10,888 nt of DNA from assembly GCA_946408315.1 (NCBI GenBank), contig CAMJRV010000047.1, positions 1 through 10,888 on the forward strand, written 5' to 3'. Positions 5,375 to 7,970 of this stretch are shown here, piece after piece. Numbering within the stretch: position 1 is the first letter of the stretch; every line of letters starts with the position of its first letter. The notes below the pieces were generated by a model. It did no database searches. It worked only from the letters and a program-made list of their open reading frames with translations, and had not been told where the DNA came from. The translations under genes were made by a program, and so were the position numbers. This DNA comes from an uncultured Bacillota bacterium (GTDB taxonomy: Bacteria; Bacillota; Clostridia; Peptostreptococcales; Anaerovoracaceae).

Positions 5375-5628
5375 TAAGCGCTGTTGCAAATCGAGATTAA
5401 ATTTGGGAGACTACGCTTCCCAGAGCTGTTTTCGGAATTTGTCCTTTAATAACTGCGGTTCTCAGCTTTCGGATAGAAAAGCAAACTGAAGCTGAATCAG
5501 TGCTTTTCTTCGCATTTCATGCTCGCCGAAAGCTCTGATCACCGCAGTTGAAAGGACGAAAATTCCTCAAAAGGCTCTGTGCATCATAGGCTTCCAAATT
5601 TAATAACATATTTTGCAATAGCCTCTTA
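5375..5628 (+). repeat. Long imperfect inverted repeat with branched tip (MITE-like element or structured RNA)
   Basis: This fills most of the roughly 400-nt non-coding gap between hemA and cbiH. The left arm (about 5380-5472) pairs with the right arm (5526-5622) along nearly its whole length. Exact or near-exact blocks are 5380-5390 with 5612-5622, 5396-5406 with 5594-5604, 5441-5447 with 5551-5557, 5451-5459 with 5541-5549, and 5466-5472 with 5526-5532. TAAG at 5375-5378 and CTTA at 5625-5628 extend it. The centre folds into a perfect 9-bp stem (5475-5483 with 5501-5509) and a small GCAT/ATGC hairpin (5512-5522), giving a forked tip. No convincing ORF lies inside. The outer end reads GCGCTGTTGCAAA, resembling IS6-family termini as I remember them, but I see no target duplication. 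It could be a non-autonomous transposon or a structured transcript; I cannot decide. Confidence 0.75.
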
Positions 5629-5641
5629 ATTATAAGTTTTT

Positions 5642-5745
5642 GCGTTCCTGCCGGGGGTGTCCCTGAAGGACCTGAAACCGATCACCATTTTTATGCGAAG
5701 CATATAAAAATGGGAGTTCCTAAAGGGACACCCCGGCGGGAACGC
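5642..5745 (+). repeat. Long hairpin with conserved apical core, copy 1 (5' leader of cbiH)
   Basis: An approximately 104-nt hairpin whose arms meet at a GAA loop (5697-5699). The outer stem pairs GCGTTCC (5642-5648) with GGAACGC (5739-5745) and continues through GC-rich pairs to about 5673/5715. An 11-nt bulge on the 5' side only (GAAACCGATCA, 5674-5684) follows. The apical stem CCATTTTTATGC (5685-5696) pairs with GCATATAAAAATGG (5700-5713), with two extra bases on the 3' side. The core recurs after cbiH in the same orientation. No poly-U tract follows, so a simple terminator is unlikely. It ends 29 nt before the cbiH start codon chosen here and may act in mRNA processing, stability or translation; this is inference. 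Confidence 0.8.
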
Positions 5746-5762
5746 CAGTATAAATGAATACG

Positions 5763-5769
5763 AAGGTGG
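5763..5769 (+). promoter_or_regulatory. Ribosome binding site that sets the cbiH start
   Basis: AAGGTGG lies five bases before the ATG at 5775. The in-frame ATG at 5754 has no Shine-Dalgarno sequence and would add seven residues before the conserved N-terminal strand, so 5775 is preferred. Confidence 0.7.
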
Positions 5770-5774
5770 TACTT

Positions 5775-6509
5775 ATGAAAATATATGTGGTGGGCCTCGG
5801 CCCCGGCGAAGATCGCCAGATGACGCAGAGAGCCCTTGACGCTCTCGAAGCGTGCGATGTGATAACGGGTTACGATGTGTACGTCGATCTGATCAAAGAT
5901 CGGTTCCAACATAAAAAACTGATTTCGACGCCGATGAAAAAAGAGGCGGAACGGTGTCATATCGCTGTGGAAGAGGCGTTAAAGGGGCAGACCGTGGCGA
6001 TGGTCTGCAGCGGAGATCCGGGCGTATACGGCATGGCGGGTCTGATGTACGAGGTGGCACAGCAGTATGATCCCATTGAGATCGAAGTGGTTCCGGGGAT
6101 TACGGCCGCCTGCAGCGGGGCTGCGATTTTGGGCGCTCCCCTGATTCATGACTTTGCCGTCATTAGCTTGAGCGACCTGCTTACGCCGTGGGAACGGATC
6201 GAGAAGCGGATCGAATGCGCCGCTGCTGCGGATTTTGTCATCTGCCTCTACAATCCATCCAGCAAGAAACGGTCGGATTATTTGAAGAGAGCCTGTGAGC
6301 TCGTATTAAAACACAGAGAAGCCGGAACAAAATGCGGCTTTGTGAAGAATATCGGACGCGAAGGGGAGGCGGGCTATGTGCTGACCCTTGAGGAGCTTCG
6401 TGAGACTCAGGTCGACATGTTTACCACCGTCTTTATCGGCAATTCCCAGACGAGAGAGATCGGCGGGAAGTTAGTGACCCCAAGGGGTTACCAGATCGAT
6501 CAGTTATAG
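5775..6509 (+). CDS. cbiH: Cobalt-precorrin-3 (precorrin-3B) C17-methyltransferase CbiH
   Basis: A 244-residue SAM-dependent methylase that methylates C17 and drives ring contraction of cobalt-precorrin-3. It begins MKIYVVGLGPGEDRQMTQRA, the N-terminal methylase motif. ITGYDVYVDLI (residues 30-40) is typical of CbiH/CobJ. The loop VCSGDPGVYGMAGLMYE is at 77-93 and VVPGITAACSGAAILGAPL at 105-123. The diagnostic ISLSDLLTPW (130-139) and LYNPSSKKR (158-166) follow, and the protein ends with a TPRGY motif. I chose the start for its ribosome binding site and because the protein then opens directly on the conserved strand. It is a plain CbiH with no CbiG or nitrite-reductase-like fusion. It is the only gene in the window flanked by long non-coding hairpins on both sides. 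Confidence 0.95.
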   Translation: MKIYVVGLGPGEDRQMTQRALDALEACDVITGYDVYVDLIKDRFQHKKLISTPMKKEAERCHIAVEEALKGQTVAMVCSGDPGVYGMAGLMYEVAQQYDPIEIEVVPGITAACSGAAILGAPLIHDFAVISLSDLLTPWERIEKRIECAAAADFVICLYNPSSKKRSDYLKRACELVLKHREAGTKCGFVKNIGREGEAGYVLTLEELRETQVDMFTTVFIGNSQTREIGGKLVTPRGYQIDQL

Positions 6510-6520
6510 AAAGCAGGGAT

Positions 6521-6618
6521 GCTGTGACGGCGTGCCTCGGCAGAAACCTGAAACTGATTACCATTTTTATGCGTCAGCATATAAAAATGGGGGTTTCAGA
6601 GGGGTACGCCGTCACAGC
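6521..6618 (+). repeat. Long hairpin with conserved apical core, copy 2 (between cbiH and cbiJ-sirC)
   Basis: An approximately 98-nt hairpin beginning 12 nt after the cbiH stop. The outer stem GCTGTGACGGCGT (6521-6533) pairs perfectly with ACGCCGTCACAGC (6606-6618). A second paired block is GAAACC (6543-6548) with GGTTTC (6592-6597, one base read as the neighbouring G). An 11-nt bulge GAAACTGATTA (6550-6560) sits on the 5' side only. The apical stem CCATTTTTATGC (6561-6572) pairs with GCATATAAAAATGG (6577-6590) around the loop GTCA. The apical stem is identical to copy 1, and the bulge differs only by two C-to-T changes. The outer arms are largely different in sequence but still paired. The cbiJ ribosome binding site GGAGAG (6630-6635) lies just beyond it. 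No U-tract follows. Confidence 0.82.
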
Positions 6619-6641: not shown

Positions 6642-7970
6642 ATGCCGAACCTTTTAATCTTTGCAGGCACAACGGAAGGAAGAGAACTTTTGGAAGCCCT
6701 GTCCCGCAGCATCGGCGGGAGCGGTCTTTCCGTCTATGCCTGTGTGGCGACGGATTACGGAAAGGAATTGCTCCCGGAAGGGCTTGCGCAGGTCCATGTC
6801 AGGGCCGGAAGGATGACCGAGCAGGAGATGGTCGATTTTATGGAGGAAAAACGGTTTGATTCCGTCATCGATACGACCCATCCCTATGCCAGACTTGCAA
6901 GTGAAAACATCAGGGCTGCCTGTAAAAGGGTAGGCTGTGAATATATCAGAGTGCTCCGGCCAAGCGGAGTAGAGGAGAAGATGGACTGTCTGTTTTTCGG
7001 CAGTCATGAAGAGGCGGCTCACTATTTGAACGAGGTAGAAGGCAATGCGCTTCTCACCGTCGGGAGCAAGGAGCTGTCCAGATATACGGGAGTCCGGGAT
7101 TATCAGAAGAGGCTGTTCCCCAGGGTGCTGCCCATGGCGGAAGTAGTGGAAAGCTGCTGCGGTCTGGGGTTTCCCGGAAAGCAGCTCATCTGCATGCAGG
7201 GACCTTTCACGGCGGAGCTGAACGCCGCCATGATCCGTCAGACAGGCGCCCGGTACGTTGTGACCAAGGATTCGGGAGAGACGGGGGGCTTTTTTGAAAA
7301 ATATCAGGCTGCAGTGGAAACCGGCGCAGAGCTGTTGGTCATCGGCAGAGAACAGGAAGAGGAAGGAATTTCTCCTGAAGACTTGCTGAATCGCCTGGAA
7401 GCCGTCTATCATATCACCGTGGAGAGGCACACTGCGGAACGACGTCAGGAGGAAGGGAGCGGAGCGGAGCCGGAGGCAGAGCGGGAACAGGAACAGGGCC
7501 TTGGCCAGTGGTTCCCTTTCTTCATAAATCTGTCGGAAAAGACCGTGGTTGTGATCGGAGCGGGAAAAATCGCCAAAAGGCGCATTGAGACGCTTTTGAA
7601 ATTTGACTGCCGTCTCCGGGTGATCGCCGGGAGCGTCCTGGCTGAAGTGGCGTCGTACGCAGAGGCAGGGAAGCTGGAGCTTCGGATGAAAGCCTATGAG
7701 GATTCCGACCTGGAGGGAGCCGACTATGTGTTGGCGGCGACGAACGACAAGCAGATCAATCATAAAATCTATGAATCTTGCAGGACCGCCGGGGTGCCTG
7801 TCAATGTGGCGGATGACAAAGGGAAAAGCGATTTCTATTTCCCGGGCATTATTCGAAAGAACGGGATTACTGTGGGAGTTACTGCGGAAGGCAGGGATCA
7901 CGCCCTCGCGAAAAAAGCTACCGGAGCGATCCGCGGCTGTTTGGAGCGAGAGCTGGAACCGATGGATTAA
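6642..7970 (+). CDS. cbiJ: Bifunctional cobalt-precorrin-6A reductase / precorrin-2 dehydrogenase (CbiJ-SirC fusion)
   Basis: A 442-residue two-domain protein. Residues 1-258 are CbiJ, which reduces cobalt-precorrin-6A with NAD(P)H: LLIFAGTTEGRELL (4-17), VIDTTHPYARLASENI (75-90), YIRVLRP (101-107), LLTVGSKEL (137-145) and the late VTKDSGETGGFFEK (207-220). Residues 290-442 are the SirC/CysG-N/Met8 NAD-binding domain that oxidises precorrin-2 to sirohydrochlorin: VVVIGAGKIAKRRIETLL (302-319), YVLAATND (362-369), VNVADDKGKSDFYFPGIIR (387-405; the aspartates are where the family's catalytic Asp lies) and GVTAEGRDHALAKKATGAIR (412-431). The extended helical C-terminus of stand-alone SirC is short here. 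A charged Glu/Gly/Gln-rich linker (259-289) joins the halves. The frame is continuous, so this is a genuine fusion in the sequence given. The two activities act at distant pathway steps, before and after the corrin methylations. Confidence 0.93.
   Translation: MPNLLIFAGTTEGRELLEALSRSIGGSGLSVYACVATDYGKELLPEGLAQVHVRAGRMTEQEMVDFMEEKRFDSVIDTTHPYARLASENIRAACKRVGCEYIRVLRPSGVEEKMDCLFFGSHEEAAHYLNEVEGNALLTVGSKELSRYTGVRDYQKRLFPRVLPMAEVVESCCGLGFPGKQLICMQGPFTAELNAAMIRQTGARYVVTKDSGETGGFFEKYQAAVETGAELLVIGREQEEEGISPEDLLNRLEAVYHITVERHTAERRQEEGSGAEPEAEREQEQGLGQWFPFFINLSEKTVVVIGAGKIAKRRIETLLKFDCRLRVIAGSVLAEVASYAEAGKLELRMKAYEDSDLEGADYVLAATNDKQINHKIYESCRTAGVPVNVADDKGKSDFYFPGIIRKNGITVGVTAEGRDHALAKKATGAIRGCLERELEPMD
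7456..7495 (+). repeat. Short tandem repeats encoding the CbiJ-SirC linker
   Basis: Three tandem GGAGC units (7456-7470) and two tandem GGAACA units (7484-7495) lie in the purine-rich stretch encoding the flexible linker of the fusion. Such microrepeats suggest that replication slippage built or extended the linker. The two unit types have different lengths, so loss or gain of one GGAGC would shift the frame and uncouple the SirC domain. Confidence 0.6.

Follow-up and report, generated by a model that had tools for sequence, protein, structure and literature searches.

ERIC sequences and the small dispersed repeats of Nostoc are scattered repeats with hairpin potential, and attC sites lie behind the stop codon of a cassette, where the antisense strand folds. 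Quasi-palindromes can be corrected by template switching during replication. REPs (GTAG and CGTC super-families) and REPINs are dispersed imperfect palindromes, with REPs measuring 20–40 nt. Passages of PMC3733652 place REP elements between co-directional or convergent genes near their 3' ends and describe some as supplying the stop codon of flanking genes. Some insertion sequences, ISPsy8 and ISPpu9 among them, have REP palindromes as their targets and insert into these, as stated in parts of PMC1525189. The bcr1–bcr18 repeats of Bacillus cereus are intergenic, some being MITE-like and some structured, and occur in UTRs or operons; sections of PMC3446304 put 84/165 and 62/155 copies within an mRNA in two strains and report a correlation of the bcr3 family with mRNA decay rate.

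Here we describe a hairpin repeat of about 100 nt from an uncultured Bacillota bacterium of the Anaerovoracaceae. Two copies flank cbiH in the window, by which we mean the whole 10,888-nt stretch of DNA analyzed. Our preferred reading, to which we assign a probability of about 0.6, is that these hairpins belong to a dispersed, non-coding, REP-like repeat with a mobile core whose outer pairing is supplied by the site. This would add a REP-like family, without a recognised transposase, in a Firmicute lineage. The repeat resembles ERIC and the Nostoc repeats, as these are generally described, in dispersal and hairpin potential. It shares with REPs the dispersed imperfect palindrome and, as far as the relevant text of PMC3733652 goes, the placement, with convergent favored over divergent gaps. 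It differs from REPs in size (our covariance model has 97 positions and 37 pairs, and some copies have longer arms), in a conserved 11–12-nt bulge inside the hairpin, in a copy-specific outer stem and in that no linked RAYT was found beside it. In 32/166 copies (10 in the host genome, G000, and 12 in G117), the middle stem is immediately preceded by the motif GTAG, which lies in an internal loop and not at an end. The bcr repeats are likewise intergenic and of Firmicutes, a likeness by description only; the passages of PMC3446304 that describe them mention no host-derived arms.

Two hairpins flanking cbiH and their relatives

The window hairpins lie among cobalamin and haem genes (Pfam). Copy 1 lies 274 nt past the hemA stop and is followed by cbiH; copy 2 is located after the cbiH stop codon (6507–6509) and ahead of the cbiJ start (6642). 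Their folding energies are –60.6 kcal/mol (5642–5745) and –55.2 kcal/mol (6521–6618), and 0/200 dinucleotide shuffles fold as well as the real hairpin in either case. The complement strands fold worse, at –56.4 and –45.7 kcal/mol, respectively; throughout, R1 denotes the strand carrying the bulge on its 5' side. Direct inspection bears out the architecture originally read from the sequence: both copies have the same apical stem (CCATTTTTATGC paired with GCATATAAAAATGG), 5'-side bulges with two C/T differences and small loops (GAA in copy 1, GTCA in copy 2), and their outer stems are unlike each other yet each self-pairing. A middle stem, absent from the original description, lies between the bulge and the outer stem (GGACCT/AGTTCC and GAAACC/GGTTTC in copies 1 and 2). 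Both copies also read, as had been noted, in the operon's sense direction, which turns out to be the minority orientation of the family.

Table 1. Positions of the hairpin repeat copies, their parts and the intervening gene in the window.
Feature	Position	Strand	Basis
Hairpin repeat copy 1 (A type), between hemA and cbiH	5642..5745	+	Covariance model match 5646–5741, 85.6 bits; fold z –8.73
Hairpin repeat copy 2 (A type), between cbiH and cbiJ	6521..6618	+	Covariance model match 6522–6617, 84.9 bits; fold z –8.92
Conserved one-sided bulge GAAACCGATCA, copy 1	5674..5684	+	Sequence; conserved across family
Conserved one-sided bulge GAAACTGATTA, copy 2	6550..6560	+	Sequence
Apical stem-loop CCATTTTTATGC-GAA-GCATATAAAAATGG, copy 1	5685..5713	+	Sequence, fold
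Apical stem-loop, copy 2	6561..6590	+	Sequence, fold
cbiH-like tetrapyrrole methylase gene, between both copies	5775..6509	+	PF00590

The hemA–cbiH gap also contains a second inverted-repeat element at ~5379–5623 (arms 5396–5440 and 5560–5604), a MITE-like insertion whose ends resemble GGCTATTGCAAAAT by eye; none was seen in that gap of the four relatives read. The adjacent cbiJ gene (6642–7970) carries a fused putative NAD-binding domain (PF13241).

Two sense-orientation copies inside a cobalamin operon could signify a corrinoid- or cbi-specific regulatory RNA among hemA, cbiH and cbiJ, in line with the original suggestion that an element binding a ligand or a protein might tune cbiH and cbiJ. 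This is very improbable: dozens of copies lie elsewhere in the genome, and across the family copies follow genes such as uvrB and mgtE. At the cbiH loci of five relatives, one of which covers the cbiH–cbiJ side only, the model has no match, and among the loci examined (the host and these five relatives) the cbiH sites are filled in the host only; presence at cbiH is lineage-specific. Rfam yields no match in the window at the gathering score and three far below the cut-off. The genome-wide distribution and the orthologous cbiH loci without a match lead us to reject a cbi-specific element; the hairpin repeat is not a corrinoid regulator. A riboswitch or other known RNA family was rejected separately, none of the Rfam matches being near the cut-off.

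The host genome is a fragmented metagenome-assembled genome (MAG) of 3.30 Mb in 589 contigs, 67% complete. A 62-nt core query has 13 blastn matches in it. When a 60-nt consensus was used as query, five further genomes of the genus yielded copies and 35/41 genomes yielded none. A covariance model built from 20 copies matches 9/9 genomes of the genus. In a family-wide search it matches 12/247 genomes and 2/92 genera, three of the matching genomes being of another genus, and in an order-wide search 9/393 genomes and 2/158 genera; both searches used stricter filters that may miss weak matches, and their genome sets overlap. Named records hold the exact core pattern in eight stretches, from MAGs of uncultured Eubacteriales, Firmicutes or Clostridiaceae. 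After removal of 25 opposite-strand duplicates (14/63 in the host, 11/128 in other genomes), we read 166 distinct copies, 49 in the host and 117 in 11 other genomes; these are the copies fetched and not a census. Copy numbers reach ~50 per genome, an underestimate because subfamilies with divergent apices are matched weakly or not at all by the model. With dozens of copies and presence throughout the genus, what had been put forward as the main alternative, a family of short palindromic repeats scattered over the genome, is now the description that fits.

Subfamily members with another short apex (GAAACCGTCCGA...GAGCGGTTTCC) lie at L152 2783–2854 (G008), L210 2513–2587 (G002) and L272 ~1410–1481 (G003). 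Core-only copies without an outer stem occur at L151 3013–3073, 56 nt from a full copy bearing the same apex, and at L182 16374–16433. A phage or plasmid origin was considered and rejected, since the 62-nt core query has no match in the phage and plasmid collections and the exact core pattern is absent from viral_contigs.

Genomic position and orientation

Neighboring genes were called with our own codon-model gene caller, and left and right neighbors were read on R1. The repeat is positioned at gene 3' ends, which flank 158/166 copies on one side or more, with a median gap of 25 nt to a stop and 96 nt to a start. The neighbor classes are '--' (90 copies), '+-' (32), '++' (25) and '-+' (6), and 13 copies are incomplete or within a called gene. 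Convergent surroundings thus outnumber divergent ones by 32 to 6, versus 14 to 41 among element-free gaps of at least 60 nt (p 1.9e-8). Between co-directional genes, 90/115 copies are antisense to those genes, and R1 is mostly the antisense strand of the gene that ends at the element. The bias of '--' over '++' is strong in G003 (29 to 5) and in seven other genomes of the genus (37 to 3). The host shows no bias for A type (8 to 8) and 11 to 4 for B type; the other genus, at 5 to 5, shows none. Random orientation outside transcribed regions had been named as the sign of a selfish repeat; instead, copies follow stop codons and are oriented with a bias in most genomes. GC skew, the majority gene strand and the adjacent gene strand agree in 66/70 co-directional copies (loci of at least 4.5 kb), so that a replication-strand cause of the bias is inseparable from gene strand.

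Folding of the antisense strand behind a stop codon, seen in most copies here, is also how attC sites are generally described. Yet integron sites of this kind are the least probable of the explanations considered: the copies are dispersed, and no integron integrase exceeds the model cut-off in 9/9 genomes (best 82.4 of 265 bits). Intrinsic terminators of the upstream genes would account for the position directly past stop codons, the A-rich left and T-rich right flanks of some copies, and the arms behind a class I tRNA-synthetase gene that end in GGCGCTTTTT in G005, G006 and G008. However, flank composition is only mildly biased, the window copies are inside an operon and lack a following T run, and a 413-aa gene (DUF1015) followed by the element has a separate terminator-like hairpin beyond it, all of which makes terminators an improbable explanation.

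Sites are partly common to several species, with 50 copies in 17 clusters having a gene neighbor in common between species; such sharing could reflect selection for function. One cluster lies behind the 413-aa gene in six genomes, and in G002 an extra hairpin adjoins the first there. The same site is sometimes filled by different subfamilies. Copies elsewhere stand behind uvrB, mgtE, a class I tRNA-synthetase gene, which we take to be ileS, an S41 peptidase gene and a hydrogenase gene. The tRNA-synthetase locus has a strong model match in G005, weak matches in G003, G004 and G006, hairpins visible by eye only in G007 and G008, and an ordinary terminator-like hairpin in G001. The S41 peptidase site is filled in G003 and G005 and unfilled in the five other loci read. 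Further apices were observed behind the tRNA-synthetase gene (L268, L269, L273 and L276).

A Y1 transposase (PF01797) is present in 3/9 genomes of the genus and 2/3 genomes of the other genus. It was not found in 7/12 genomes carrying the repeat; several of the genomes are incomplete, and those without it include G001 (97% complete) and G008 (98% complete). None of the eight loci around Y1 transposase genes contains a match to the repeat model. A Y1/RAYT enzyme was therefore rejected as the mover.

Structure and covariation of the hairpin

On R1 the element consists of an outer stem, a short internal loop, a middle stem (typically GAAACCG/CGGTTTC), the 11–12-nt bulge (typically TRAAACCNNTTA), an apical stem (CC..TTATGC / GCAT..AA..GG, with a small bulge) and a small loop. 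There are several subfamilies, some with other apices. The inner 8–10 pairs of the outer stem belong to the element consensus and not to the site. Two apical pairs are G-A/G-A in 30/130 copies and T-C/T-C in 0/130, as parsed by a coarse pattern that leaves 36/166 copies unparsed; tandem G-A/G-A pairs should be stable only on R1. Among 3236 outer pairs, 2993 are Watson-Crick, 114 G-U, 50 A-C and 79 other. Shared descent of the copies partly inflates this G-U excess; with the count restricted to the host genome it is 36 versus 26.

All 18 outer pairs covary, with both sides changing, in 40 host copies and in 113 copies from other genomes. The covariation score is 0.660 versus 0.208 after shuffling in the host set and 0.507 versus 0.173 in the other. 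These values come from cleaned model alignments (9/49 host and 4/117 other copies fell below the cut and were excluded) that were fitted to the structure and are hence tilted towards it. Distal outer pairs of B type show 57 double Watson-Crick changes versus 12 single ones in 209 cells, and those of A type 111 versus 23. The apical stem of B type has 2 double and 11 single changes, and 10.7% of its bulge letters are off consensus. The excess of double changes fits arms set by the site or copied from each other better than stepwise compensation, as an indication and not as proof.

Selection at the RNA level, for an mRNA 3'-end stabiliser or an RNase III or intercistronic processing site whose outer stem varies by compensation, would explain this strong covariation, the conserved bulge, the location in presumed 3' UTRs or in the gaps of operons and the recurrence of the element after one and the same gene, in as many as six species. 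Several observations make it rather unlikely. In the '--' class, transcripts of both flanking genes carry the opposite strand, whereas the G-U excess (59 versus 24) favors the bulge-5' strand, as do the G-A pairs over all copies. Double changes dominate in the distal B-type pairs while the bulge departs from consensus to the extent given above, and in some copies the arms run into coding sequence.

Outer arms and the insertion site

In a subset of copies, the site is the source of the outer arms, which are a mirror of the gene end or the arms of another palindrome. The latter case is seen in the host, where outer arms like TTACTRTTCACAGCC lie beside 11/21 B-type copies, on both sides in five (within 45 nt, up to 3 mismatches). 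The TTACTRTTCACAGCC-like motif occurs 20 times in the genome with at most one mismatch, versus 0 for a reversed control, and at three places such arms form stand-alone hairpins of ~40 nt without a core. Another palindromic repeat can thus hold a core in its loop. As described in portions of PMC1525189, REP-targeting insertion sequences likewise enter an existing palindrome, as we infer for B type; those sequences carry a transposase, in contrast to the short core here.

Stand-alone palindromes of ~40 nt with arms like GTTACTRTTCACAGC were located in the host at L239 ~1500, L243 ~1475–1515 and L244 ~1500. They are a second, REP-like repeat of this genome. At L240, a palindromic element of ~235 nt lies between the same GTTACTRTTCACAGC-like arms.

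In other copies, pairing of the stem extends beyond the stop codon and takes in the last part of the adjacent coding sequence. In an anchored test, at least 18 stem positions, mismatches included, align into coding sequence in 8/107 stop-adjacent copies, versus 0.40 expected from a control in which the far flank was swapped within the genome; at least 24 coding positions are reached by 5/107 copies versus 0/2675 swapped-flank controls. A laxer cut of at least 10 coding positions gives 13 copies versus 3 to 7 in the controls, and 0/31 copies reach this length on the opposite side. A separate local-alignment test, cruder and weak, scores at least 24 in 6/113 copies versus 0/123 controls. No coding-end mirror of 18 positions was detected by the anchored test in 99/107 copies. 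The continuation of arms into gene ends is real but visible in a minority only, as expected if a non-coding arm decays. The two window copies have no mirror of the gene end, and divergence of the corresponding empty sites is too great for reconstruction.

Individual loci, read by eye from alignments and with genes named by Pfam, illustrate these mirrors. In G001, the end of mgtE is followed by the element, then by ~36 nt that repeat the mgtE end in inverted and decayed form, and then by the next gene; G003 has the element without a mirror of the coding end, and G002, G004, G006 and G008 (G007 was not among the loci read) have neither a model match nor a visible mirror. Behind uvrB, the model matches in G000, where a decayed mirror is visible, in G001 and, weakly (25.3 bits), in G002; there is no match in G003, G004, G006, G007 and G008. 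At a 352-aa gene (PF19328), G003 and G005 have the mirror in common and the site is empty in G008; the inverted copy looks inserted between the element and the original downstream sequence, without replacing the latter. At a 120-aa gene, elements are present in G003 and G008, and G005 has an apparent decayed mirror without a core, which would mean loss of the core or a palindrome older than the insertion.

Inverted copies of gene ends and the large excess of compensated double over single changes in both types could also arise after insertion, if the core hairpin seeded template switching and the arms were repeatedly copied from each other by quasi-palindrome correction or extension. The inverted copy at the 352-aa gene, which looks added and not substituted for downstream sequence, speaks against this, and we regard it as unlikely. 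Under the preferred reading, in which the site supplies the outer pairing of a mobile core, the core would move as DNA, probably as the folded single strand R1, and land behind stop codons or in the tips of existing hairpins. The landing site would provide the outer pairing through insertion into a palindrome or through fold-back copying of the neighboring strand primed from the hairpin. In the latter case, the core's 3' end would be extended on its own 5' flank, so that on the gene strand the gene end would be followed by the core, then by the inverted gene end and then by the downstream sequence. After insertion, transcription would turn the element into a strong hairpin, located in a 3' UTR or in the gap between two genes of an operon. 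An effect on mRNA decay is a plausible candidate role, as a side effect.

That the folded core primes such fold-back copying as it inserts behind a gene, and so comes to lie between the 3' end of that gene and the same end in inverted form, is a tentative proposal. Its odds are lowered by G005, where a mirror lacks a core, and by the mgtE locus of G003, where the element lacks a mirror. If true, it would be insertion with an inverted rather than a direct target duplication, of a kind that we have not seen described, and mirrored gene ends could be searched for in any genome. A literature search, with most subscription journals outside its reach, returned no REPs with inverted duplication and no palindromic intergenic repeats of Clostridia with covariation; in work on compensatory palindromic repeats, quasi-palindromes, small dispersed repeats and MITE inverted duplication, nothing was seen on site-derived arms. 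The original prediction had taken diverged but still complementary arms to indicate selection for structure or a palindromic element that maintains pairing, and had named covariation as support for an RNA role. Covariation is present and strong, but it does not single out RNA here, as the arms are locus-specific and some mirror coding ends; the outer stem can be explained without RNA selection. Our data suggest that covariation among dispersed hairpins may stem from the landing site and not from RNA selection alone, which bears on covariation-based RNA searches.

In G003, a perfect inverted repeat of at least 78 pairs surrounds a copy (L199 ~2437–2535), apparently reaching into coding sequence; near a contig end, it could be a copy of very recent origin or the product of an assembly join, and it was left out as proof. 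In G005, an element together with its mirrored gene end is duplicated in tandem at a contig end (L166 3290–3512), the unit being ~125 nt.
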